DNA of 42,155 bases, from positions 1-42,155 of the forward strand of contig DSCM01000002.1 of NCBI GenBank assembly GCA_011049115.1, given 5' to 3'. Source of the DNA: Pseudomonadota bacterium. GTDB lineage: Bacteria > Desulfobacterota > Anaeroferrophillalia > Anaeroferrophillales > Tharpellaceae. A model generated the notes under the pieces. It was not told the DNA's origin, ran no database searches, and worked only from the letters and a program-made list of their open reading frames with translations. The position numbers and the translations under genes are program-made. Positions 14,769-26,409 of this stretch are shown piece by piece (the first letter of the stretch is position 1; every line of letters starts with the position of its first letter).

Positions 14769-15263
14769 TCAAGTTCGAAACAGCTCTTCCATCTCCTGCA
14801 TGAATTCTGGCGGAATAAGTCTAAGACGTGCAAACTCATTGTTGTCAAAGAGAACAAAATCACCTTCACCGCTGCAGCAGACAATGTTATCTGGGTCCCT
14901 GACTTCTGCCTTAAGCCTTAAAACTTTGTTTTTACGGGCTAGAATCTCCCCGTAGACGGTCAGTGCCGTGCCAATAAAAACCGGTTTTCTGAAAATTATA
15001 TTGATATTCTTGGTTAAAATAAAGCCTTTTCCGAAGTGAATCGCCGTCCAGGACATGGTTTCGTCAAGAACGGTTGCAAGTATGCCGCCATGTACCAAAT
15101 TATGCCATCCTCGGGTATAATCAGGGAGTGTAATTAATGATCTCAATCTTTTTCCATTGGTGGTAAAAGTCATTTTCAAGCCGCAGCGATTTTCGGTGCC
15201 GCAGGCAAAGCAAAGTCTATCTATATTGGGCAGTGCAGTCCAAGTTTCTGGGTCAGCCGTCAT
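14769..15263 (-). CDS. PaaI-type hotdog-fold thioesterase
   Basis: 164 aa. The hotdog active-site region is visible as LVHGGILATVLDETM (about residues 58-72 of this start), where HGG and the following acidic residue are characteristic of PaaI/YdiI-type acyl-CoA thioesterases, followed by NINIIFRKPVFIG. A CFACG motif near the N-terminus (with C18 and C21) is common in a sub-branch of these proteins. The start is ATG 15263 because GGAGG lies 5 bp upstream; the TTG four codons earlier would be inside the ribosome-binding site. It follows the acs genes on the same strand but behind a terminator hairpin. It probably hydrolyses an acyl-CoA, substrate unknown. Confidence 0.8.
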   Translation of the reverse strand: MTADPETWTALPNIDRLCFACGTENRCGLKMTFTTNGKRLRSLITLPDYTRGWHNLVHGGILATVLDETMSWTAIHFGKGFILTKNINIIFRKPVFIGTALTVYGEILARKNKVLRLKAEVRDPDNIVCCSGEGDFVLFDNNEFARLRLIPPEFMQEMEELFRT

Positions 15264-15366
15264 TTTACCCTCCAAGTAGAAGTTCAGATGTCAAGGAAAA
15301 AGAATTGCGTTTGAGCCCTCAAGATGGCGAAAGTAGAAAGTGTATTGATATCTGGACTTTAAATTA

Positions 15367-15398
15367 ATAAGGGCCGCTTATTTAGAAGCGGCCCTTAT
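15367..15398 (-). terminator. Terminator hairpin between acsE and the thioesterase gene
   Basis: Perfect 13-bp stem ATAAGGGCCGCTT (15367-15379) with AAGCGGCCCTTAT (15386-15398) and a 6-nt loop. On the minus strand it is followed by ATTAATTTAA, a weak T-rich run. It probably ends the acs transcript. Confidence 0.75.
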
Positions 15399-15429
15399 CT
15401 TGGGAGTAACGCGATTTAAAATTGGTGGC

Positions 15430-16356
15430 TTATTTATACCAATTCTTGTTGTACTTTCCAACTAGATCTTCGATCCAGGAGTGCGAATACAGGACCTCAC
15501 CCATCAGACATTTGATGCTGCGATAGTAAACCTGCATTTCCGTACTCAGGTTGTTGGAATCAACATCGCCACCTTCCATCATCGTTTTGGTTAATTCCTC
15601 GACCTGAGGAATTTTCCCTTTGCATAGAGCCATCATTTCAGTATCGTAAGCATCCACAATGGAGGAGTAAATTCCAAGATACATATGCATGGCCTGATAT
15701 GCACGATTCAGATATTGACGCAGTTCCGTTGGGGTCCCGTTGGAAATGTTGGAAAGACCACAAGTTGACTTAGCTCCGGGAGCAAAATCAGGAATCAGGG
15801 GCAGAAACTCTAGAAAAGAGGCAACCTGACCTGGGTCAACGCAGACCGGTAAAACAATCGGGTCAATATACATTCTTTCGGCAGGAATATCATATTCCAG
15901 GGCCTTATTGTAAATTTCCGCTGCACACATCCCGCGCTCGTTGACATCGCGTGGAATACCTTCATCGCTCAGCGTCAATGCAACAAACTGACAACCGTAT
16001 TTTTTTACCAGCGGCATCCTGTCTTCAAGGCTCTGGGGCTGCGCGGAGATTGAATTCAGAATACAGGACTCTGGTCTTTTCGAGGCTTTAAGTCCGGCTT
16101 CAATAGCAACCGTATTGGTAGTGTCCAGCGCCAGCGGCAGATCGGAAACCTCTTCCACAGTCTTGACCAGCCAGGCCATCATTTCGTCACCGGCTTTACG
16201 CGCCGGTCCCAAGTTCAGATCCTGTACATCCCCACCGGCTTCCATCTGTTCAATCGCCATCTTCTGAATCGGCTTGGGATCGCGCTCTTTGATCGCGGGC
16301 CCGATGGTTTTGGACATGATGTTAATGCTTTCAGGTATGGTAATGATTGATGCCAT
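15430..16356 (-). CDS. acsE: Methyltetrahydrofolate:corrinoid/iron-sulfur protein methyltransferase AcsE
   Basis: Transfers the methyl group of methyl-tetrahydrofolate to the cobalt of the corrinoid iron-sulfur protein, the entry step of the methyl branch into acetyl-CoA. 308 aa; the start is ATG 16356 because GGAGGAAG lies just upstream, whereas the 13-codon longer reading is unsupported. Pterin-binding TIM-barrel features are visible: an early MEAGGDVQDLNLGPAR segment (about residues 38-53), a LPLALDTTN strand (about 72-80), SILNSIS-like strand NSISAQPQ, and KSTCGLSNISNG (about 196-207), where the Asn and Gly line the pterin site. The call also rests on its place beside acsC/D/B. An attenuator-like hairpin separates it from acsC. 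Confidence 0.93.
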   Translation of the reverse strand: MASIITIPESINIMSKTIGPAIKERDPKPIQKMAIEQMEAGGDVQDLNLGPARKAGDEMMAWLVKTVEEVSDLPLALDTTNTVAIEAGLKASKRPESCILNSISAQPQSLEDRMPLVKKYGCQFVALTLSDEGIPRDVNERGMCAAEIYNKALEYDIPAERMYIDPIVLPVCVDPGQVASFLEFLPLIPDFAPGAKSTCGLSNISNGTPTELRQYLNRAYQAMHMYLGIYSSIVDAYDTEMMALCKGKIPQVEELTKTMMEGGDVDSNNLSTEMQVYYRSIKCLMGEVLYSHSWIEDLVGKYNKNWYK

Positions 16357-16400
16357 ATCTTCCTCCGCAAAACTGCTTTTTATTGAATGATTCAAGGGCT

Positions 16401-16442
16401 AAAAAGACAGGTGCAGGGTGTCTCTTGACTCCCTGAACACCT
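16401..16442 (-). terminator. Attenuator-like hairpin between acsC and acsE
   Basis: On the minus strand AGGTG-tt-CAGGG (16442-16431) pairs with CCCTG-CACCT (16418-16409), a 10-bp stem with a 2-nt bulge and a 12-nt loop. It is followed by GTCTTTTTAG, with a five-T run at 16405-16401. It could lower acsE expression relative to acsC or mark a processing point. Confidence 0.6.
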
Positions 16443-16466
16443 ATCTTAAAGATCGTATTCTCGTTT

Positions 16467-17810
16467 TTACAGACCTTTCAAGAAAGCGGGAAGGTCTGAC
16501 GCTTCACGGGTTCCGATAATTACTTCCCAGTCACTACCAAGTTCTTCCTGGAACTCACCGGAAAGCTGTGCGACATAGCCCGGGATAATGATTTTACTAT
16601 GGTTGATTTTGTCTCTGATGCCGCTCTTGACGACAAAAGGAGCCATTGCGTCGGCCACAAATTTTCCTGCCGACCAGGCGGTCAGAACCGACATTCCTTC
16701 AACGTCCATGATCAATAACCAGGTTGGCACCCGGCTGGCTTCGATTTCGGCCGCAACTATAAAATAAGTCAAGGCAAAGTTGGTGGTGATGATTACTGGA
16801 GAGTCGGGACCGGGCTTATTAATTTCGTAAATGCCTTCGTCCATCACCATCGGCCGTTGCGGGTCGGTGTAGATGTTAAGGCGCTGGACCAGCAGGGGCA
16901 GCATTCTTTCCTTATCGACGTCGCTCATGACAATTATGCCGGCATATTTGGCGATCGCAATATTGGCCAGCATGGCTTCCATGTAGGGATCGTCGGTCAT
17001 GTCGCAGACAAAGTCAATGGTGGGGAAGCCCAGTTCCCGGTTTTTGGCTTTCAGCGCCGCCCGTCGTACCTGGACATCATTATAAAACATGGTCTTGAGA
17101 TCTTTGGCGCCGCAGTCAATGACAATATCCTTAATTCCCGCTTCAACGATTTTGCCGGTAAAATTCGAAACTTCTTCAGGGTTGGCGCCTTTGGCGACAA
17201 CCGCGGCTCCGGTTTCCTTGGCAAGAGAAGCCATCTTTTCACAGTTATCGGCGGTTGCGGCATAGAGCAAGGCGCCTTTTCCGCTGGCTGCCTTGGCGCC
17301 GGCTTCAAGGGCGGCAAAGTTATCGCTCATCAGAATCAGACCTTTACTGGTGGCCCCGAGAGCTTTTTTTACCAGAGCTTCAAATTTACCAACGTCACCA
17401 CTGCTGTTGCGAATGGCCAGATAGTCAGGTGCCAGGGTCAAACCCACGCGCTCAAAACAAACATTGTTAAGATTGCTGATCTTGGCGTCGATTTCTGCCT
17501 CAGGCATGGTATCGCTTATCAGGCAGGCAATTCCGGTTGCGTTAACAAAGGTTTTTTCATGGCGATACATAACCAACTCTTCGCCGATTTTCTTGGCATT
17601 CGCACCACTGCCGATAGTGACGCCGCGAATTGGAGGCGCAGAGGCTTCGCTCAGGATGGTTTTTGCCTCATCCGAAACATATGGGCATTTACTTAGTTCC
17701 GCTTTGCCTCCGGCCAGGGCCATGGCGAAAGCCAGACAGGTCGGGCTACCACATTCTTTGCAGTTGGTCTTGGGGAGCAACTTAAAGATTTGTATTCCAG
17801 TGAGTCCCAT
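16467..17810 (-). CDS. acsC: Corrinoid/iron-sulfur protein large subunit (AcsC, CFeSP gamma)
   Basis: Large subunit of the heterodimeric corrinoid iron-sulfur protein, which carries the methyl group on cobalt from AcsE to acetyl-CoA synthase. 447 aa, the normal size. The N-terminal 4Fe-4S domain has Cys17, Cys20, Cys25 and Cys42 (NCKECGSPTC, then SKC). The central TIM-barrel domain and C-terminal cobalamin-binding Rossmann domain follow, the latter including LLIMDVEGMSVLTAW. ATG 17810 is supported by AAAGGAG 9 bp upstream. The 241-bp gap to acsB contains a cobalamin riboswitch whose last helix lies about 24 nt ahead of this start codon, so its translation is probably controlled by corrinoid. 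Confidence 0.96.
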   Translation of the reverse strand: MGLTGIQIFKLLPKTNCKECGSPTCLAFAMALAGGKAELSKCPYVSDEAKTILSEASAPPIRGVTIGSGANAKKIGEELVMYRHEKTFVNATGIACLISDTMPEAEIDAKISNLNNVCFERVGLTLAPDYLAIRNSSGDVGKFEALVKKALGATSKGLILMSDNFAALEAGAKAASGKGALLYAATADNCEKMASLAKETGAAVVAKGANPEEVSNFTGKIVEAGIKDIVIDCGAKDLKTMFYNDVQVRRAALKAKNRELGFPTIDFVCDMTDDPYMEAMLANIAIAKYAGIIVMSDVDKERMLPLLVQRLNIYTDPQRPMVMDEGIYEINKPGPDSPVIITTNFALTYFIVAAEIEASRVPTWLLIMDVEGMSVLTAWSAGKFVADAMAPFVVKSGIRDKINHSKIIIPGYVAQLSGEFQEELGSDWEVIIGTREASDLPAFLKGL

Positions 17811-17833
17811 TCAGACTTCTCCTTTTGTGTTTG

Positions 17834-18022
17834 TCCCCAACTTCATCTTTCGCCGCGTACTAGCATCGTTGAGGAACACTGACCGGTCAGGTCTTCTGGC
17901 TTCCGGATCTTCCATCTAGCTCTCCTTCCCAGGTTGCCCCAGTGGTTTATTGAGTAGAAGTCCCCGGTTACAGCGGCGGGCCCGCTTCCGCTTTTAACGG
18001 AATTCCCTGTGCCGGCAGTGTT
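17834..18022 (-). ncRNA. Cobalamin riboswitch ahead of acsC
   Basis: Read on the minus strand. Closing helix P1 is AACACTG (18022-18016) with CAGTGTT (17881-17875). The core has the class signature: ACAGGGAAT; a small hairpin ending in AAAAGCGGAAGCGGG; then CCCGCCGCTGTAACCGGGG; then ACCACTGGG, GGGAAGG and the B12 box AAGCCAGAAGACCTGACC (17902-17885). Directly after P1 is a hairpin TCCTCAAC (17875-17868) with GTTGGGGA (17841-17834), whose loop has GCGGCG (17856-17851). This is perfectly complementary to CGCCGC in loop L5 (17978-17973), giving the expected L5-L13 kissing loop. There is no T run, so control is likely translational: the regulatory hairpin ends 10 nt before the acsC ribosome-binding site. 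Aptamer identity is strongly supported; switch direction is not known. Confidence 0.93.
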
Positions 18023-18051
18023 CGGTTATTAAAATTAATTCAAAAAATTTT

Positions 18052-20277
18052 TTACATCATTTCCATCAAAGAATCCATCTCCATGCAAGGATGTCCGACT
18101 TCGGTCAGGAATGCCATGATGCTTTCTTCATCGGTGCCGTTTTCCTCGGTGGCGATCTTGCTGTAAAGATCAGGCACCCCGGCTTCCGCCGCGCGCACAT
18201 CGATCATTTCCTTCAATGATTCTTTTAAGGCTTTCGGCATCCAGCAGAGACGCTTGATACCGCCTTCGGCCGAAATAAATTTTTTACTCCCGATATAGAA
18301 CTTGGAAATTCCGACGAATCCAGGGGTTTGCAGGCCTCCACCGACCGAACCCGCCAAGGTTGAAAAGGCCATTCCGCAGGGTGTCTCTCCGGCATAATCG
18401 CGGTCGACAACCATGACGCCGTTCGCGGCGAAAAGACAGGCGGCAATCGCCTCGAAGCAGCCGCAGGAAGTCATCGGATCAACCATGATTGAATAAGCGG
18501 CAAATGATTCAAAAGCGTTACCGGAAGCCGGACGTACGAATTCATCGACCCCTTTCCATTTACCAAGTCTGGCGTCTATGACATCGCCTTTGACAATCGG
18601 CTGGTTCGGACCGTGTTCATTGATCTCATAAGAAGCCCGGCAGTCCAGCCAGTTGTAGGCGCCGCAGAGCCCCGGACGTTCCGGGGTGACGACGCAGACG
18701 TGAGTCGGAGCAAAGGACTGGCAAAGGGAACAAGAATAATAGGTTTCCGTGGTTTCGTCATTCATGTCGGCGAGACGGTTGTCGCGTTCGGTCCAGGTTT
18801 TGCGAGCGACATCGAGATGTTGTTTGACGTCTTCTTCGTTGGTGAAAATCGTCACCTGAACCTTATCCACGATGGCACCGAACTCGTTATGCATCTTGGC
18901 ATGGAGGATCGTACCAAAATGCTCAAAAGTGAAGCCGGATTCGACGGCCTTTTTGGAAACCCGCATCCAGACGATGTCGCGCTGTCCGATGTGCAGAATT
19001 CCTTCAGCGCCATTCAGCAAATGATGGCACTGACGCTCCAGAATGGGTTCGAAGTCCTCCTGGAATTTACGTCCCGCCAGCTCAATCCAGATGCCGATAG
19101 GCAGCAGGCCGCCGGCTTCGATATCCTTGATGTTGGGGCCGACGACCTTGAATTTCCCGTCCTCGACCTGGTCGAGTGGTTTGGAGTAGGCAAATTCAAA
19201 GCCCATGGATTTGGGTCCGCCGAGCTCGACGTACATGGCGTCTTTTTTGATGCGCTCGCCCTCAAAGGCTGGACCGTAGGACATCGGAATATCGATTTTG
19301 GTGATGTTGATCTTCAATCCGCGGACTTCGATGCTTTTGGCGACGATTTCTTCCTGCGGAATATTGGATACCACATGTTCATAGGTACAGATACCGGTCG
19401 GCAGGATTTCCGGAATATCGGTATCGGCAATTGCCGGGTAACCCCAGTTGATGGCTCCGGCGGCGGCGGCGTACTTTTCATCATCGATTTCATCAAGGGC
19501 AAGCACGAAGGCAAAAATGCGATCCTTACTGTACTTGAGAATGCCTTTGTAATCCCCGGCGGCCTTGCCGCCAAAGGTCAACGCTGCTCTGGTGGCGAAG
19601 CCCAGGGCATGAATCGCCGCCGAGGTATCTTTGCCGAAACTGACGAGACGGGTGTTCCAGCCTAACTGAACCCCACCCTCTTTGAGCTGTTCGGCAAAGG
19701 AAATGCCGGTTTTCGGGTTGTGTCCGGCCATGAAGACATAAATGCTTTTCTCCTGTAATTCTTTAGCAATCTTAACCGCGGTCTCGACATCTTTGGCGGC
19801 TCCGACGACGGCGGCAAAGCCGGGAGCGGAACCGTCAACGAATTCGACCCCGCGTTTCCGCAGAATAATATCATCCGCAGCTCCGAGCCAGATGTCCGCG
19901 TCGGTATCTTCAGGATCTTCCTTGCTTGGCAGATATGGGCAGTTTTCAATGTATTTGAGCGCTTCTTCCATGTCGAAAGCAAAGGCCGTGGCCATGCCGG
20001 CGTCGAGGCCTGGGCCGAGATACGGCAGCCATGCCGTTTCCGTCGGCAGCTCGGGCAGTAATTCACGACATCGGGTTAGGACCGGAATCATGTCACCCAG
20101 GGTTGAAACCTTCATGCCGCCGATACCGTAAACAACGGGCAGGTAGTAAGCGGTGTTGGGCAAGGCCACCTCTTTGTCGGCGCCAAACTTTTTGATCGCG
20201 GCATTGATTTTACCTTCAACCCGGTCCACCACGGCATGGGCGCCGCGAATCGCTGCTGTAAGGATTAATTTAGACAT
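18052..20277 (-). CDS. acsB: Acetyl-CoA synthase (CO-methylating), AcsB
   Basis: Makes acetyl-CoA from CO, a methyl group delivered by the corrinoid protein, and CoA. 741 aa, matching the bacterial three-domain form that keeps the N-terminal CODH-docking domain missing from archaeal enzymes. All six A-cluster cysteines are present: Cys516, Cys519, Cys528 and Cys538 (YYSCSLCQS ... GLCGAYN) and Cys605 and Cys607 (MTSCGCFE), an offset of +10 from the Moorella numbering. ATG 20277 follows AGGAGAATAAG. A 5-bp GC hairpin (20294-20308) lies in the 77-bp gap after acsD. The usual partner, CODH catalytic subunit acsA/cooS, is not encoded in this window, so it must be elsewhere or absent. Confidence 0.97.
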   Translation of the reverse strand: MSKLILTAAIRGAHAVVDRVEGKINAAIKKFGADKEVALPNTAYYLPVVYGIGGMKVSTLGDMIPVLTRCRELLPELPTETAWLPYLGPGLDAGMATAFAFDMEEALKYIENCPYLPSKEDPEDTDADIWLGAADDIILRKRGVEFVDGSAPGFAAVVGAAKDVETAVKIAKELQEKSIYVFMAGHNPKTGISFAEQLKEGGVQLGWNTRLVSFGKDTSAAIHALGFATRAALTFGGKAAGDYKGILKYSKDRIFAFVLALDEIDDEKYAAAAGAINWGYPAIADTDIPEILPTGICTYEHVVSNIPQEEIVAKSIEVRGLKINITKIDIPMSYGPAFEGERIKKDAMYVELGGPKSMGFEFAYSKPLDQVEDGKFKVVGPNIKDIEAGGLLPIGIWIELAGRKFQEDFEPILERQCHHLLNGAEGILHIGQRDIVWMRVSKKAVESGFTFEHFGTILHAKMHNEFGAIVDKVQVTIFTNEEDVKQHLDVARKTWTERDNRLADMNDETTETYYSCSLCQSFAPTHVCVVTPERPGLCGAYNWLDCRASYEINEHGPNQPIVKGDVIDARLGKWKGVDEFVRPASGNAFESFAAYSIMVDPMTSCGCFEAIAACLFAANGVMVVDRDYAGETPCGMAFSTLAGSVGGGLQTPGFVGISKFYIGSKKFISAEGGIKRLCWMPKALKESLKEMIDVRAAEAGVPDLYSKIATEENGTDEESIMAFLTEVGHPCMEMDSLMEMM

Positions 20278-20354
20278 ATCTTATTCTCCTGTACGGGCTT
20301 CTTGCCCGCCTTGTAAGAGTTTCTAAATCGAAATCTACTTAATCATAGGCCAGC

Positions 20355-21302
20355 TTAGGCCAAAAGCTCGGCGATGCAGTTTTCCACCAGTTTCACAGCT
20401 TTGGGGTTTCGCATGATCAGCAGGTTGGATCCGGACAAAGCCATGTCCATGGCCGTCATGGCCTCCCAGAGGACGCCGCGTTTTTCCATGTCCGGACCAA
20501 AGGCCGGTTCTTCGACTTCAGTCAGTTTGACCTCGCGGGCTTTCCAGCATTCCTTGCCCAGGTCATTAATGATCGGAGCCTGCATTTTTTCGTCATTTTG
20601 CGCCAGAGCGGCCAGTGAAATGCGCTCCATTACCGAATAAGAATATTCAACTCCGTAGCCCAGCGCACCGGTCGAAGGCTCCATGATAACCTTGTTCAGG
20701 GGCAGGCCGAGATTGTTGATGAGAATATTCATCTGCTTGGCCATGTTGACATCGATCGGACTCTGGGAAACCACAGCGTGACCATAGCCGAGACAGGCCG
20801 CGGCGATCTTTTTGTAATTAGCCTCGACGGCGGGCCCGACCAGGAGGTTTTTGCCTTCGTTGACCTGGCAGACTTTAGCCAGGACTTCAGCGTCTTTTTC
20901 AACGTTGCCGGAACCCCAGACAATCAGGGGAACGTTGATTGCTCCGAGCATCTTTTTGACCAGATCCGCGGCGTAGTCGGCGTTTTTATTCTCGCCGTTG
21001 GGGTCGGTTCCCGCCAGCTGCAGACAGATCGCCGCGGCGCCATATTCTTCCACGTTCTTTTTGGCCCAGGCAATCGGGTCGTTGATTACGTCTTTAAAGG
21101 GGTCGACCACGGCGGCCGCCCATTCGGGATCGACCACGTCATAGACTTCCATGGCCACAATGGGTTTATGGGGGATCGCGCCGTCAAAGGTACCGAAAGG
21201 CATGGCCGCCTGACCGCCTACTGTGAGTGCATGGTCACCGCTGCCAAAGGTCAGGGTGCCCATTTTCCCGGAATACTTCTCTGTCTGTGCTGAAAATGCC
21301 AT
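20355..21302 (-). CDS. acsD: Corrinoid/iron-sulfur protein small subunit (AcsD, CFeSP delta)
   Basis: Small TIM-barrel subunit that pairs with AcsC to hold the corrinoid between them. 315 aa, normal for the bacterial protein. Recognisable segments include DHALTVGGQAAMPF near residue 23, KPIVAMEVYDVVDPEW near 46, GAAAICLQLAGTDPNG near 88, LIVWGSGNVEKD near 125 and SGSNLLIMRNPKA near 290. ATG 21302 has AGGAGG just upstream. It has its own promoter 170-200 bp upstream, so the genes from acsD onward can be transcribed separately from fhs, RACo and cooC. Confidence 0.96.
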   Translation of the reverse strand: MAFSAQTEKYSGKMGTLTFGSGDHALTVGGQAAMPFGTFDGAIPHKPIVAMEVYDVVDPEWAAAVVDPFKDVINDPIAWAKKNVEEYGAAAICLQLAGTDPNGENKNADYAADLVKKMLGAINVPLIVWGSGNVEKDAEVLAKVCQVNEGKNLLVGPAVEANYKKIAAACLGYGHAVVSQSPIDVNMAKQMNILINNLGLPLNKVIMEPSTGALGYGVEYSYSVMERISLAALAQNDEKMQAPIINDLGKECWKAREVKLTEVEEPAFGPDMEKRGVLWEAMTAMDMALSGSNLLIMRNPKAVKLVENCIAELLA

Positions 21303-21474
21303 CAGATATTCCTCCTGTTAGAGTTGGTGGGGTTGATGTTTCTCATTGCTTTATTAAAAATCATTAGCTTTGATTGATGCAGATCTTATTCGCATGCCAT
21401 GGTGGCGGGGTGAAAACGATTTGTCAGAGAACACAGATGCTGAAACTGTACATTGTATATTTACGAAGCGCGGC

Positions 21475-21504
21475 ACTATAATCACATTCGAAGAATTATT
21501 TCAA
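21475..21504 (-). promoter_or_regulatory. Probable acsD promoter
   Basis: On the minus strand TTGAAA (21504-21499), 18-bp spacing, TATAGT (21480-21475). Just downstream is the word AAATATACAAT (plus strand ATTGTATATTT, 21452-21462), which also occurs inside the fhs promoter. The leader to acsD is about 165 nt. Confidence 0.65.
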
Positions 21505-21523
21505 GAAAAATTTCGCCTTGTTT

Positions 21524-22276
21524 TTAATAGGGAAATATTTCGGCCATAATTTTATTGATCTCGATGCTGGCCGGGGAGTCCGTCGGAAGCTTGATCGTGG
21601 CCTTGCCTTCGCGATCAAATTCGGCAATCAGAGGATCGTCGGGAATGACTCCGGCCAGATCTATGCCGATTTCATTGATTAATGCGTAGGCTTCGTCAAC
21701 CAGCTTGCCGTCACTGGCCCGGTTAACGATCAGGGCCAGGCCTCCGACCCGAAGCCTGAGCTCTTCAACCAGTTCCTTAATACGTCCGGCGGTGCGGATG
21801 CCGCGCAGACTGGGATCGGAAACCACCAGCAAAAGGTCAATGTCTTTCATCAGAAGGCGACTCAGGTGTTCCATGCCGGCTTCATTATCGATCACCACAT
21901 AATCGTAATCCTTGACCATGAAATCGATAAACTTGGTACACAACGAATTGGCGTAGCAGTAGCAGCCGGCGCCCTCGGGACGACCCATGGTCAAAAGATC
22001 AAACGTGCCGGTCTCTACCAGCAGGTTCTGGATATGGTATTCCATGTAAGCTTCTTTGGTCATGCCGGTGGGAACTTCGGTTTTCATGCCTTCGCGGAGC
22101 TCGCCGATGGTGCCGGGAATTTTGACGTCTAGGACTTCTCCCAGATTGGCGTTGGCATCCGCATCAACCGCCAGGATCGGCTTCATTCCCTGTTCCGCCA
22201 TCCAGCGTAGAATGAGGCCGATCAACGTAGTTTTTCCGGTTCCGCCCTTCCCGGCGATAGCGATGGATTTTCCCAT
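21524..22276 (-). CDS. cooC: CooC/AcsF-type nickel-insertion ATPase
   Basis: P-loop ATPase of the MinD/NifH class that helps insert nickel into CODH or acetyl-CoA synthase. 250 aa. The deviant Walker A motif is at residues 9-17 (GKGGTGKTT), with the signature lysine Lys10. VDADANANLGEVL (about 37-49) is the switch/Walker A' region, and a Cys-x-Cys pair in GAGCYCYANSLC (about 104-115) is the metal-binding motif of CooC dimers. VVIDNEAGMEHL (about 126-137) is Walker B-like. ATG 22276 follows AGGAAA. It sits between the RACo gene and acsD, as in acetogens, fitting an ACS-maturation role; a CODH target cannot be excluded. Confidence 0.9.
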   Translation of the reverse strand: MGKSIAIAGKGGTGKTTLIGLILRWMAEQGMKPILAVDADANANLGEVLDVKIPGTIGELREGMKTEVPTGMTKEAYMEYHIQNLLVETGTFDLLTMGRPEGAGCYCYANSLCTKFIDFMVKDYDYVVIDNEAGMEHLSRLLMKDIDLLLVVSDPSLRGIRTAGRIKELVEELRLRVGGLALIVNRASDGKLVDEAYALINEIGIDLAGVIPDDPLIAEFDREGKATIKLPTDSPASIEINKIMAEIFPY

Positions 22277-22378
22277 TTTATGTTTCCTGACTTAATTTAA
22301 GGATTGTGGGGAGGCATTGCTTTCCGCCCGGTTCACTTGACTACCGCCGGACTGGCATCTTACCGTCGTCACGTCAAG

Positions 22379-24352
22379 TTACCGCAGCAGTTTCATGGTC
22401 TTCGGAAAAGCTTTACTGTCAGTATGCGGCAGAAATTGGGCCGCGACATATTCATCCATGAATTTCATGTTGTTGGCGAGTTCGATATTAGTCATCATTT
22501 CGGCAACCCGGCGGGCTTCACTCATCATTTCCCGGGAGACTGAAACCAGGCGATTGCCGAGCAGGGCGCCGTTGCCGGCAAACATAAATTTATCGAGTTC
22601 TATCTCCGGTAACAGCCCGATGGTGATCGCTCGTTCCAGATTGATATATTTGCCGAAACCGCCGGCTATAATAAAGCGATCAAGTTCAGAAAAGGTCAGG
22701 CCGACGCTGTCCAGCAGAATCCGGCAACCGGCGTAAATCGCGCCTTTGGTTCGAATAATATTATCGATATCCCCTTCGGTGATCGTGATTTCAGCAATTC
22801 CTGCAGCGCTTTGCTCGGCATCGGCAAGAATGAATTCCCAACCGCTTTCGCCCTCACGGATGCGATTGCCAGGCAGATCGCGTCGGAACTTGCCGTTTGG
22901 CTCAATGATCCCGACCAACAGCATTTCCGCGATAGCTTCAATAATCCCGGAGCCGCAGATGCCTAAAGGCTTTTGTTTGCCGATCGTCAGCAGCATCGGT
23001 TCAAAGGTTTGCGGGTTGATGCGGATCTGCTCAATCGCGCCAACCGTTGCCCGCATGCCGTATTTGATGCCGCCTCCTTCAAATGCGGGTCCGGCAGAAC
23101 AGGAGGTGCAGACCAGCCAGTCGCAGTTCCCGAGAACAATCTCGCCGTTGGTTCCGACATCCATAAACAGGGTCAGTTCGTCGCGCTGAAAAATGCCGGA
23201 ACCCAGGACTCCGGCCACGATGTCCCCGCCGACATAAGAGGAAACCGCCGGAAAGGTATATACATGCACATGCTCAGGCAGCTTCAGGCCGAGGTTGACC
23301 GCACGTACCGGAGGAAAGAAATTGGCGGTGGGAACATAAGGGGCTTCGCGGAGGTATTTAGGGTCAATTTCCAGAAAAAACTGGGTCATTGCGGTATTGG
23401 CTGCAATGACCAGATGTGAAATCTGTTCCTTGGGGATGCCACCGGCGCTTATCAGATTGTCAATTATTTCATTCAGATCGCCGATAATGACCCGATGCAG
23501 ATCCTGCAGTCCCGTTCCTTTTTGGGAGTAAACGATGCGACTGATGACATCCTCGCCGAATCGCACCTGCGAGTTGTATTTAGCGTCGCTGGCAACCAGT
23601 AACTCGTTGTCGAGGTCATTGACTACCGAGCGGTTCTCGGCTTGCTGGGAGGCGTTAAGATTAAGAAGCTGTCCTTGAACCGTAGTCGTGCCGATATCGA
23701 TAATGATGGAATAGTTTTTATCTCTGGTATCGCCTGCTTCGATATCAATCAGTTTCAAACCTTTGGGGTTATAGACGATGGTTGCCGTAACCTGCCATTG
23801 CGCCTGGCGCAGCAGGTTGCCCAGACGCCGTAAAAGAAAATAGTCGGTTGAAATGTTTTCAAGCTGGTGAATTTGTTTCAGTTCTCGCATCAAACGGCCC
23901 AGGTCGCTCAGGTTGTCATCCGGGGTCGGAGGCGGCATCTCTATGTAATATTTGAATACGGCGGGGTTTATTCTGACGCCTTTGACCAGGGTGTTGATAT
24001 CCCGGGCCATCAGGGTATGTTGTTGCTGTCCGAGATTCTTCTTCAGGACGGAATGGTCAATGCGGGATTCCGGAGGAATCATGATTACCAGGTCGTCGGT
24101 CACTTTGGTCAGGCAGGCCAGGCGATAGCCCTTTTCCCAGTCCGCATGGTTAATTTTGGCGGAAGTATCGCTTTCGGCCTTCCCTTTTTTAAGGATGACC
24201 CTGCATTTGCCGCAGGCTCCGGTGCCGCCGCAGGAAGCGTTGATATGGACGCCAGCCGCGATTGCGACGCGGAGCAGGTTTTCACCGTCCCGATAAACGT
24301 CGACGGTCTGGTTGTCGGGTTCAAAAGTGACCTGGTGGATAGGTTCGGGCAT
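22379..24352 (-). CDS. RACo-type reductive activator of the corrinoid/iron-sulfur protein
   Basis: ATP-dependent reductase that returns inactive Co(II) corrinoid on CFeSP to Co(I). 657 aa. The N-terminal 2Fe-2S ferredoxin domain has Cys41, Cys47, Cys50 and Cys80 (SCGGTGACGKC, then RLAC). A linker region follows, then an ASKHA-type ATPase domain from about residue 205: IIIDIGTTTVQG, FMDVGTNGEIVLG (about 395), CSAGPAFEGGGIKYG (about 416), LGICGSGIIEA (about 460) and IIAGGFGKYINLE (about 570). These fit the RACo/DUF4445 family in acs clusters. There is no strong ribosome-binding site at 24352. Its place between fhs and cooC supports the call over other corrinoid activators such as RamA. Confidence 0.9.
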   Translation of the reverse strand: MPEPIHQVTFEPDNQTVDVYRDGENLLRVAIAAGVHINASCGGTGACGKCRVILKKGKAESDTSAKINHADWEKGYRLACLTKVTDDLVIMIPPESRIDHSVLKKNLGQQQHTLMARDINTLVKGVRINPAVFKYYIEMPPPTPDDNLSDLGRLMRELKQIHQLENISTDYFLLRRLGNLLRQAQWQVTATIVYNPKGLKLIDIEAGDTRDKNYSIIIDIGTTTVQGQLLNLNASQQAENRSVVNDLDNELLVASDAKYNSQVRFGEDVISRIVYSQKGTGLQDLHRVIIGDLNEIIDNLISAGGIPKEQISHLVIAANTAMTQFFLEIDPKYLREAPYVPTANFFPPVRAVNLGLKLPEHVHVYTFPAVSSYVGGDIVAGVLGSGIFQRDELTLFMDVGTNGEIVLGNCDWLVCTSCSAGPAFEGGGIKYGMRATVGAIEQIRINPQTFEPMLLTIGKQKPLGICGSGIIEAIAEMLLVGIIEPNGKFRRDLPGNRIREGESGWEFILADAEQSAAGIAEITITEGDIDNIIRTKGAIYAGCRILLDSVGLTFSELDRFIIAGGFGKYINLERAITIGLLPEIELDKFMFAGNGALLGNRLVSVSREMMSEARRVAEMMTNIELANNMKFMDEYVAAQFLPHTDSKAFPKTMKLLR

Positions 24353-24405
24353 CGGCTTTTATAATTGAATTAAGGCAAGGTAAAAACTCAGATATCGCAG
24401 AGTTG

Positions 24406-24450
24406 TAAAAAGGGCTGGGTGTGCGGCGGCGCCCCACCGATCACCCAGCC
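24406..24450 (-). terminator. Terminator-like hairpin ahead of the RACo gene
   Basis: On the minus strand GGCTGGGTG (24450-24442) pairs with CACCCAGCC (24421-24413), a 9-bp stem enclosing a GC-rich 20-nt loop, followed by CTTTTTAC. It is one of three hairpins in the 190-bp gap between fhs and the RACo gene. Confidence 0.65.
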
Positions 24451-24465
24451 TTTCAAGACTTGATC

Positions 24466-24502
24466 GACCGTGGTTTCGAGGCCAGGCCACGAAACCACGG
24501 TC
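24466..24502. repeat. 13-bp perfect inverted repeat between fhs and the RACo gene
   Basis: GACCGTGGTTTCG (24466-24478) and CGAAACCACGGTC (24490-24502) are perfectly complementary with an 11-nt loop. It lacks a T run, so it may be a processing/stability stem or a protein-binding site. Confidence 0.75.
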
Positions 24503-24514
24503 TTATGGAACAGA

Positions 24515-24539
24515 ACGGAAAAAGGACAGGTGTCCTTTT
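24515..24539 (-). terminator. Hairpin with T run directly after fhs
   Basis: AAAAGGACA (24520-24528) and TGTCCTTTT (24531-24539) form a near-perfect palindrome four bases after the fhs stop, continued by T residues on the minus strand. It is probably a partial terminator. Confidence 0.55.
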
Positions 24540-24543
24540 AAGC

Positions 24544-26325
24544 CTAGAACAATCCCTTTACCTGACCGGTCTTGGTGTCTACATCTATCCGACGGTAGGC
24601 AGGATCGGAAGCCGTTCCCGGCATCAATTTGATGGTTCCGGCCAGAGGTACGCAGAAACCTGCACCCTGGTAGATAAGGACGTCGCGAATCGGAAGAATG
24701 AAACCTTTCGGGCGGCCTTTCAGAGTCGGATCATGAGATAATGAAAGGTGGGTCTTGACCATGCAGGTTCCAAGTTTGGAAAGCTCAGGATCATTTTCAA
24801 TCATTTTGATCTTCTTGAGTGCTTCATCCGTGAAGGACGCACCGTCGGCCCCGTAGACTTCGGTGGCCAGTAATTCAATGCGTTTCTTTAGTGGCGTGCT
24901 GTCTTCGTAAAGAAGTTTGAAGTTGGTCGGCTCATCACAGGCAGCAATTACCGCTTCGCAAAGCTCTTTGGCGCCTTCGCCACCGAACTGCCAATGTTTG
25001 GAAACCGCACAGCGAGCACCGGCTTTCTCGGCCTCTTCCTTGATTACCGCGATTTCGGCGTCGGTATCGGTATAAAAACCGTTAATGCAGACAACCGGAT
25101 TAATGCCGGCCTTCTTGACGGTTTCGATATGAGCCACGAGATTGCAGCAGCCGGCTCTGACCAGGTCGATATTTTCTTCAACATATTCCTTGGCCAGTTT
25201 GCGGCCGGGCACGACTTCGGGACCGCCGCCGTGCATTTTGAGGGCGCGAACCGTGGCCACGATGACCGAACAGTTCGGGGTCAAACCGGAGAAACGGCAC
25301 TTCAGATTCCAGAACTTTTCGAAGCCGATGTCGGCTCCGAAACCTGATTCGGTAACCACGTAGTCGGCCAGCTTGAGGCCGATCCGGTCGGCGATAATGG
25401 AGGACTGGCCGATGGCGATATTGGCGAAAGGTCCGGCATGAACCAGCACCGGCTGGCCTTCAACTGTCTGCAGCAGGTTGGGGTTGAGGGCCTTGACCAT
25501 CCAAGCGGTCATCGCACCGGCGACGTCCAGATCCTCGGTGGTTACCGGGTTGCCGGCCTTGCTGTAGGCGACAATGATTTTGCCGATGCGGGCGCGCAGG
25601 TCGGCAAGATCCTTGGCCACGGCCAGGATCGCCATGATTTCTGAAGAAACGGCGATGGCGAAGCCGGATTCCATGACCATGCCGTCAAGGCGGCCACCGA
25701 GGCCGATGACGATGTTACGCAGGGACTGAGCACAGAAATCGATGATCCATTTTACTTCAACCCGATTGGGGTCGATGTCGAGACGCTTGAGCCCTTTGCT
25801 GGCCAGGAAAGCGTCACTGTTGTTCTGCTCGTGCTGCATGCGTGAGGTCAGCGCCACCATCATCAGGTTGTGAGCGTTCATGATGTTGTCGATGTCGCCG
25901 GTCAGGCCGAGGGAGAATGGGGTCAGCGGAATGGTCTGGGCCAAGCCGCCGCCGGCGGCGGAACCCTTAACATTGAAGGTCGGTCCACCGGAGGGCTGAC
26001 GGATGGCGCCGACGACCTTTTTGCCGAGTAGGCCAAGTCCTTGGACCAAACCCATGCTGGTCGTGGTCTTACCTTCTCCCAACGGGGTTGGGGTGATCGC
26101 CGTAACATTGACGTATTTGCCGTCGGGCTCATCTTTAAGGCGTTCGAGAACCTTCATGTAATCGATTTTGGCAACATACTTGCCCATCGGAATGAGTTCT
26201 TCGCCTTCAAGGCCTAGCTCGTCTGCGATCTCGGTGATCGGTTTCATTAACTTTTCTTCGGCCAATGCGGCAATCTGCCAGTCGGCCAGATTGGGCGCGT
26301 CAAATACGCTGAAATCTAATCCCAT
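24544..26325 (-). CDS. fhs: Formate--tetrahydrofolate ligase
   Basis: Makes 10-formyl-THF from formate, THF and ATP, the ATP-using step of the Wood-Ljungdahl methyl branch. The start is ATG 26325 with GAGGAGGAAG upstream; a 22-codon longer reading has no ribosome-binding site. 593 aa, slightly longer than the common 555-560. The P-loop is [13 protein letters not shown] (about residue 80), followed by [19 protein letters not shown] (about 112-130), [13 protein letters not shown] (about 142) and the folate-site region with [12 protein letters not shown] (about 408). It is the first gene of the minus-strand carbon-fixation block, and its leader holds an intrinsic terminator, so its expression is likely controlled by attenuation. 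Confidence 0.95.
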
Positions 26326-26409
26326 TGCTTCTTCCTCCTCGGAAATTGAGTTTTGCCGGTCATCTCTGGCCGGTCTTTTAAAAGCTCTCACCAGCGCCGG
26401 GCTGGTGGC

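Follow-up and report, generated by a model that had tools for sequence, protein, structure and literature searches.

In published descriptions, cobalamin riboswitches shut off B12 synthesis, B12 uptake or B12-independent isozymes; a single activating case is proven, and it is transcriptional. What would such an element do inside an acetyl-CoA synthase operon, directly ahead of the gene for a protein that carries a corrinoid? The question is raised by a window of 42,155 nucleotides, the whole stretch of DNA analysed here, whose minus strand carries fhs (26391-24544), acsV, a MinD/CooC-like ATPase gene, acsD, acsB, the riboswitch, acsC and an acsE-like gene, in that order. Upstream of the switch lie acsD (20355-21302), which encodes the small (delta) subunit of the corrinoid iron-sulfur protein (CFeSP; NF003376, 385 bits, cut-off 280), and acsB (18052-20277), which encodes acetyl-CoA synthase (NF040764, 1016 bits). 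The presumed target is acsC (16467-17810), encoding the CFeSP large (gamma) subunit (NF003195, 577 bits), followed by the gene for an acsE-like methyltetrahydrofolate:corrinoid protein methyltransferase (15430-16395; NF005719, 225 bits, below the curated cut-off of 259). These gene coordinates agree with the original prediction, which placed the switch within the operon directly ahead of acsC and acsD upstream beyond it. The CODH catalytic subunit (acsA/cooS) was unmatched among the open reading frames scanned in the acs cluster (window 14769-26391) and may be encoded elsewhere.

The aptamer sits in the 241-nt gap between acsB and acsC on the minus strand. A cmscan search of the whole window yields an RF00174 Cobalamin match at 18031-17867, which scores 86.2 bits where the gathering cut-off is 31.5 bits, has an E-value of 4.9e-20 and spans the complete model (1-189); orthologues in relatives score 78-103 bits. 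The covariance-model search that had been proposed as a check thus confirms the predicted cobalamin aptamer between the two genes. P1 pairs AACACUG (18016-18022) with CAGUGUU (17875-17881) over 7 bp, or 8 bp with a flanking G-C pair. The B12 box GCCAGAAGACC is read from the sequence at 17900-17890, alongside the core words CCACUG and GGGAAGG, and L5 CGCCGC (17973-17978) forms a perfect 6-bp kissing pair with L13 GCGGCG (17851-17856). The 7-bp P1, the B12 box and the full complementarity of the two loops had all been described beforehand and are present in the sequence as described. RNAalifold recovers the L5-L13 pairing unprompted, and the L5 sequence is invariant across 12 aligned leaders. 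In relatives the kissing interaction is kept as a core of some 5 bp that includes G-U changes; a mismatch occurs in one leader (L010). The larger class-I architecture is associated with adenosyl-corrinoids. The complete RF00174 match, together with CCACUG and GGGAAGG, points to this architecture, which indicates that the acsC element is a class-I (AdoCbl-type) corrinoid riboswitch with a correspondingly predicted ligand. Class-I-type switches accept several corrinoids (Kennedy et al., PMC9600662).

AcsC was searched in 22 genomes of the window's order, the relatives of Candidatus Tharpella and Candidatus Anaeroferrophillus, and the loci were then scanned with Rfam. A riboswitch stands immediately ahead of acsC in 14/14 leaders of the order that have enough upstream sequence, so that the survey of related acsC 5' regions suggested with the original prediction returns the switch throughout. 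Eight of these leaders, including that of the window, belong to the Tharpella side (family 1) and six to the Anaeroferrophillus side (family 2). Among the named GenBank records that match the loci carrying the switch are those of Candidatus Tharpella aukensis, Thermodesulfobacteriota MAGs and a Candidatus Anaeroferrophillacea MAG. Other orders of the phylum share the gene order acsB-acsC(-acsE); the acsB-acsC gap measures about 240-370 nt in this order versus mostly 10-150 nt in other lineages. In the 449-nt regions upstream of acsC from other lineages, no B12 box occurs at the position expected for an acsC switch, and B12-box matches with at most two mismatches are scattered, mostly within acsB or in gaps too short for an aptamer. 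The subset of outgroup loci scanned with Rfam gave no match ahead of acsC. A general acsC riboswitch across bacteria is unsupported, there being neither a B12 box in the expected place in these upstream regions nor an Rfam match in the outgroup loci scanned. In a tree of aptamer cores, the 14 acsC riboswitches form one clade (support 0.87) that is split like the two families, and the simplest reading is a single insertion before the order diversified, followed by vertical inheritance.

Two variations on the locus were observed among relatives. In three Tharpella-side leaders (L015, L016 and L127), the acsB match falls about 10 residues short at its end and the distance to acsC is greater by about 100 nt, which suggests an altered acsB C-terminus or an insertion ahead of the switch. 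Relative G003 has a second cobalamin riboswitch downstream of acsE (L010 3993-4177; 121.9 bits, with a terminator), so that another B12-controlled unit follows the acs genes there.

An aptamer in this position might be a relic, copied from an uptake-type riboswitch in an ancestor and without a present regulatory role, and the words of the acsC aptamer are indeed similar to those found in the other riboswitches of these genomes. Such an origin without function is very improbable, given an element kept in 14/14 leaders over two families whose AcsC proteins are roughly 75-87% identical, helices that keep pairing while both sides change (11/29 consensus pairs of the aptamer), and a kissing loop and P13 that are kept as well. 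On the sequence record, the acsC switch is ancestral in the order and under selection.

The other cobalamin riboswitches of these genomes provide a reference for its mode of action. The window's genome has eight RF00174 matches, and, as read from translations, several of the others precede TonB-dependent-receptor-like genes and one a cobalamin-synthesis-like methyltransferase gene. On contig C91 of this genome, two full cobalamin aptamers (L002 613-795 and L005 1017-1206) stand in tandem before one TonB-receptor-like gene, with a terminator after the first and none after the second, an arrangement that looks like a stack of one transcriptional and one translational switch. The weakest RF00174 match of the genome (46 bits; L008 1501-1674, contig C112) is without a normal B12 box, keeps its terminator, and is perhaps a degraded or variant switch. 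Across six genomes of the order, an intrinsic terminator lies downstream of 21/24 non-acsC cobalamin riboswitches (one of them weak) versus 0/6 acsC riboswitches, which indicates that the acsC expression platform differs and is of a non-terminator kind. In the acsB-acsC gap of the window, neither a terminator-like nor a promoter-like site is seen. A transcriptional terminator/antiterminator platform was rejected on the lack of a terminator in the gap, and an internal promoter ahead of the switch was rejected in a search for sigma-70-type sites, which gave no sigma-70-like match. The intra-operon position without either site, together with the rho gene in the window's genome, would suit a corrinoid sensor whose output is something other than acsC initiation, for example Rho-dependent termination or RNA processing or stability, which would set how much AcsC (and AcsE) is made relative to AcsB and AcsD. 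This output is judged unlikely, as the constraint described below, at codons 2-3 and 12-13 and around the Shine-Dalgarno (SD) sequence and AUG, points to initiation.

P13 follows P1 directly and is present in 14/14 leaders, its inner part being exchanged between the families. In family 1, CCUCAAC (17868-17874 in the window) pairs with GUUGGGG (17835-17841), and in family 2 CCUCA(U)CUCUC pairs with GAGAGUGGGG. The SD of acsC, AAGGAG (17819-17824), lies outside this helix, about 9 nt downstream in the window and 9-23 nt beyond P13 across all 14 leaders, and sequestration of the SD inside P13 was rejected on this ground. The 3' strand of P13 has an alternative partner in acsC itself, at codons 11-14. 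The resulting competing helix is possible in 14/14 leaders, and it and P13 are mutually exclusive. Its length is 7 bp in family 1, where UUGGGGA pairs with UCCCCAA of the coding sequence (17840-17834 with 17776-17770 in the window, codons 12-14). In family 2 it reaches 8-10 bp, up to UGGGGGGCAG:UUGCUCCCCA, where GCA:UGC lengthens it beyond P13. When given only the segment that starts with the P13 3' strand and ends at codon 15, RNAalifold picks the competing helix as the outer stem unprompted, and in 12 sequences it finds A-U to G-U changes and no break. These changes are one-sided, with no compensatory ones, because the coding-sequence arm is invariant.

Smaller pairings surround the start site. 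A 5-bp start-codon hairpin is present in 14/14 leaders, with a left arm that differs by family (AGUCU:GGACU versus AGUGA:UCACU); in the window, AGUCU (17813-17817) pairs with GGACU (17807-17803). In the closed state, UCUUU of codons 8-9 (17784-17788) can pair with AAGGA of the SD (17824-17820), and this pairing appears inside the competing helix in the alternative-state fold of leader L009 and of most family-1 relatives. A complementarity spotted by eye between aptamer GACUUCU and AGAAGUC at the SD was dropped, as it is not conserved in the alignment.

The coding arm of the competing helix (17770-17776) contains codons CTC12 and CCC13, which are invariant in the 14 leaders. When 13 acsC genes from the clade are compared, an invariant residue with a synonymous choice is found in 272 codon columns, and just 20 of these keep one codon; those within codons 2-15 are GGA2, CTC3, CTC12 and CCC13. 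For residues with at least four codons, one codon is kept in 4/7 columns within codons 2-15 versus 7/147 in the rest of acsC, and only 2/24 invariant-leucine columns keep one codon, namely codons 3 and 12. The pair CTC12-CCC13 occurs in 12/84 acsC genes without a switch. Some start-proximal codons, TTA3 or GGA5 for example, are likewise retained in other acsC clades, and CCC is a common choice for Pro13 in acsC genes elsewhere; part of the codon signal is therefore non-specific, and most weight falls on CTC12 and the joint pattern. Synonymous shuffles of the duplex between the P13 3' strand and the coding sequence gave 3/2000 to 416/2000 equally good duplexes per leader. Since these tests are mostly weak, codon invariance across leaders is relied on instead. 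From the leader anatomy and this constraint, we infer that the acsC element acts on translation, through a platform that extends into the coding sequence of acsC.

The proposed mechanism involves an exchange of partners by the P13 3' strand. Without corrinoid, this strand would pair with the acsC coding sequence and close a long hairpin around the SD and AUG; such loop closure would presumably inhibit initiation, leaving AcsC poorly made. With corrinoid bound, the L5-L13 kissing loop would hold P13 together, freeing the coding sequence and the SD, and release of the SD would allow AcsC to be made, an ON response. The corrinoid-carrying subunit would be made only when the cofactor is there to fill it, with upstream acsD and acsB unaffected.

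Folding calculations bear on both the feasibility and the sign of this exchange. The energy of the alternative state minus that of the P13 state ranges from +0.9 to -3.6 kcal/mol, values that vary with how much coding sequence is included. The two states are close in energy, which a switch requires, and the kissing loop, once stabilised by ligand, is expected to tip the balance to P13. In family 1, opening of the SD is cheaper in the P13 state in 8/8 leaders, by 0.4-2.2 kcal/mol, while in family 2 that state leaves the SD as open as the competing state does, or slightly less so. With coding sequence to +90, family 2 becomes slightly OFF-like because CUCC of codons 12-13 can pair with the SD: the SD:CUCCCC probability reaches 0.49-0.90 in the P13 state of 5/6 leaders, and SD opening there mostly costs slightly more.

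The same pairing gives the element an opposite reading, a translational OFF switch in which bound corrinoid would form P13 and the freed CUCC would pair with GGAG of the SD, blocking acsC; without ligand, GGGG of the P13 3' strand would capture CUCCCC and the SD would stay open. Physiologically, this would provide more apo-CFeSP at scarce corrinoid, better able to compete for the cofactor, or it would trim AcsC at corrinoid excess. GGAG and CUCC are both present in 14/14 leaders, and all but one of the characterised corrinoid riboswitches repress (PMC10653944). However, the SD:CUCC probability is near zero in the P13 state of family 1, including the window, with coding sequence to +60 or +90, and the pairing itself has no more than 4 bp with which to close a long loop. 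Repression also leaves unexplained the third-base retention of CCC13 and the family-2 GCA:UGC extension beyond P13, and a corrinoid carrier repressed by its own cofactor is hard to rationalise.

Taken by family, the folding points to ON in family 1, whereas in family 2 it is neutral or leans slightly towards OFF. Given this split, a translational ON switch for acsC, possibly also acting on the acsE-like gene behind it, is judged to be only just probable, and the OFF switch to be possible but rather unlikely. The fuller proposal, a corrinoid-activated translational riboswitch with its inhibitory arm in the coding sequence, AcsC made only with cofactor available and AcsD outside its control, has about an even chance of being right. 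The ON sign put forward in the original prediction gains support from the anatomy, with the SD outside P13, no terminator, and a P13 3' strand shared with the acsC helix, but the folding supports it in family 1 alone.

The ON sign is further favoured by the layout, which is that of the proven activating cobT switch of Alkalihalobacillus halodurans, reported as the first activating corrinoid riboswitch (PMC10653944). In that system, P13 cannot coexist with an inhibitory hairpin that uses the same 3' side, and the riboswitch activates (Procknow et al. 2023, PMC10653944). The cobT and acsC leaders have in common a P13 stabilised by a kissing loop (PMC10653944) and a P13 3' side shared with a competing hairpin. 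They differ in that the competing hairpin of cobT is an intrinsic terminator, whereas the partner in the acsC leader is coding sequence and there is no terminator. The best ligand of cobT is cobinamide and its activation is proven, while activation of acsC is predicted from the layout. With cobT known, an activating corrinoid riboswitch is not wholly new.

With the RF00174 class as a whole, the acsC element shares a complete aptamer, a B12 box, an L5-L13 kissing loop and P13. The usual targets of the class are synthesis, uptake or a B12-independent isozyme, in contrast to the corrinoid-carrying protein of an acetyl-CoA synthase operon, and the acsC element also differs in its predicted platform, which extends into coding sequence. 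The enteric btuB translational riboswitches (Ravnum and Andersson 1997; Nou and Kadner 2000; cited in PMC2211319) resemble the predicted acsC switch in a translational control that needs both leader and coding sequence, but they are repressing, precede an uptake gene and stand first in the transcript. The B12-elements of delta-proteobacteria, broadly related bacteria, belong to the same riboswitch class; in the sections of PMC545781 that treat them, they precede cobalamin synthesis or transport genes or nrdDG, and no acs target is named. Targets named for delta-proteobacteria in the text available from these sources are synthesis, transport, nrdDG and metE, and the corresponding portions of the Dehalobacter, Oleidesulfovibrio and older delta-proteobacterial survey reports likewise name no acs target. 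In papers on Eubacterium limosum and Acetobacterium bakii, the named cobalamin riboswitches precede cobalamin synthesis or transport genes. In the main texts of the open-access papers searched, there is no report of a cobalamin riboswitch ahead of acsC or of any other CODH/ACS gene. A survey of skin bacteria (PMC9600381) places riboswitches near both cobamide-dependent and cobamide-independent enzyme neighbourhoods, so that some hints already exist that genes using B12 can be under such control.

The riboswitch class is known and its activating topology is known once; the new elements are acsC as a target, a platform predicted to include coding sequence, and conservation throughout the order. 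Situated in a central carbon-fixation operon, the acsC switch offers a specific example in which to ask if cells use RNA to adjust the synthesis of an apoprotein to the supply of its cofactor, and it also raises the question of whether a riboswitch can have coding sequence as its expression platform. If the ON reading is true, the element would represent cofactor-gated apoprotein synthesis for a corrinoid-carrying protein of the Wood-Ljungdahl pathway, with a sign that is unusual for the class.
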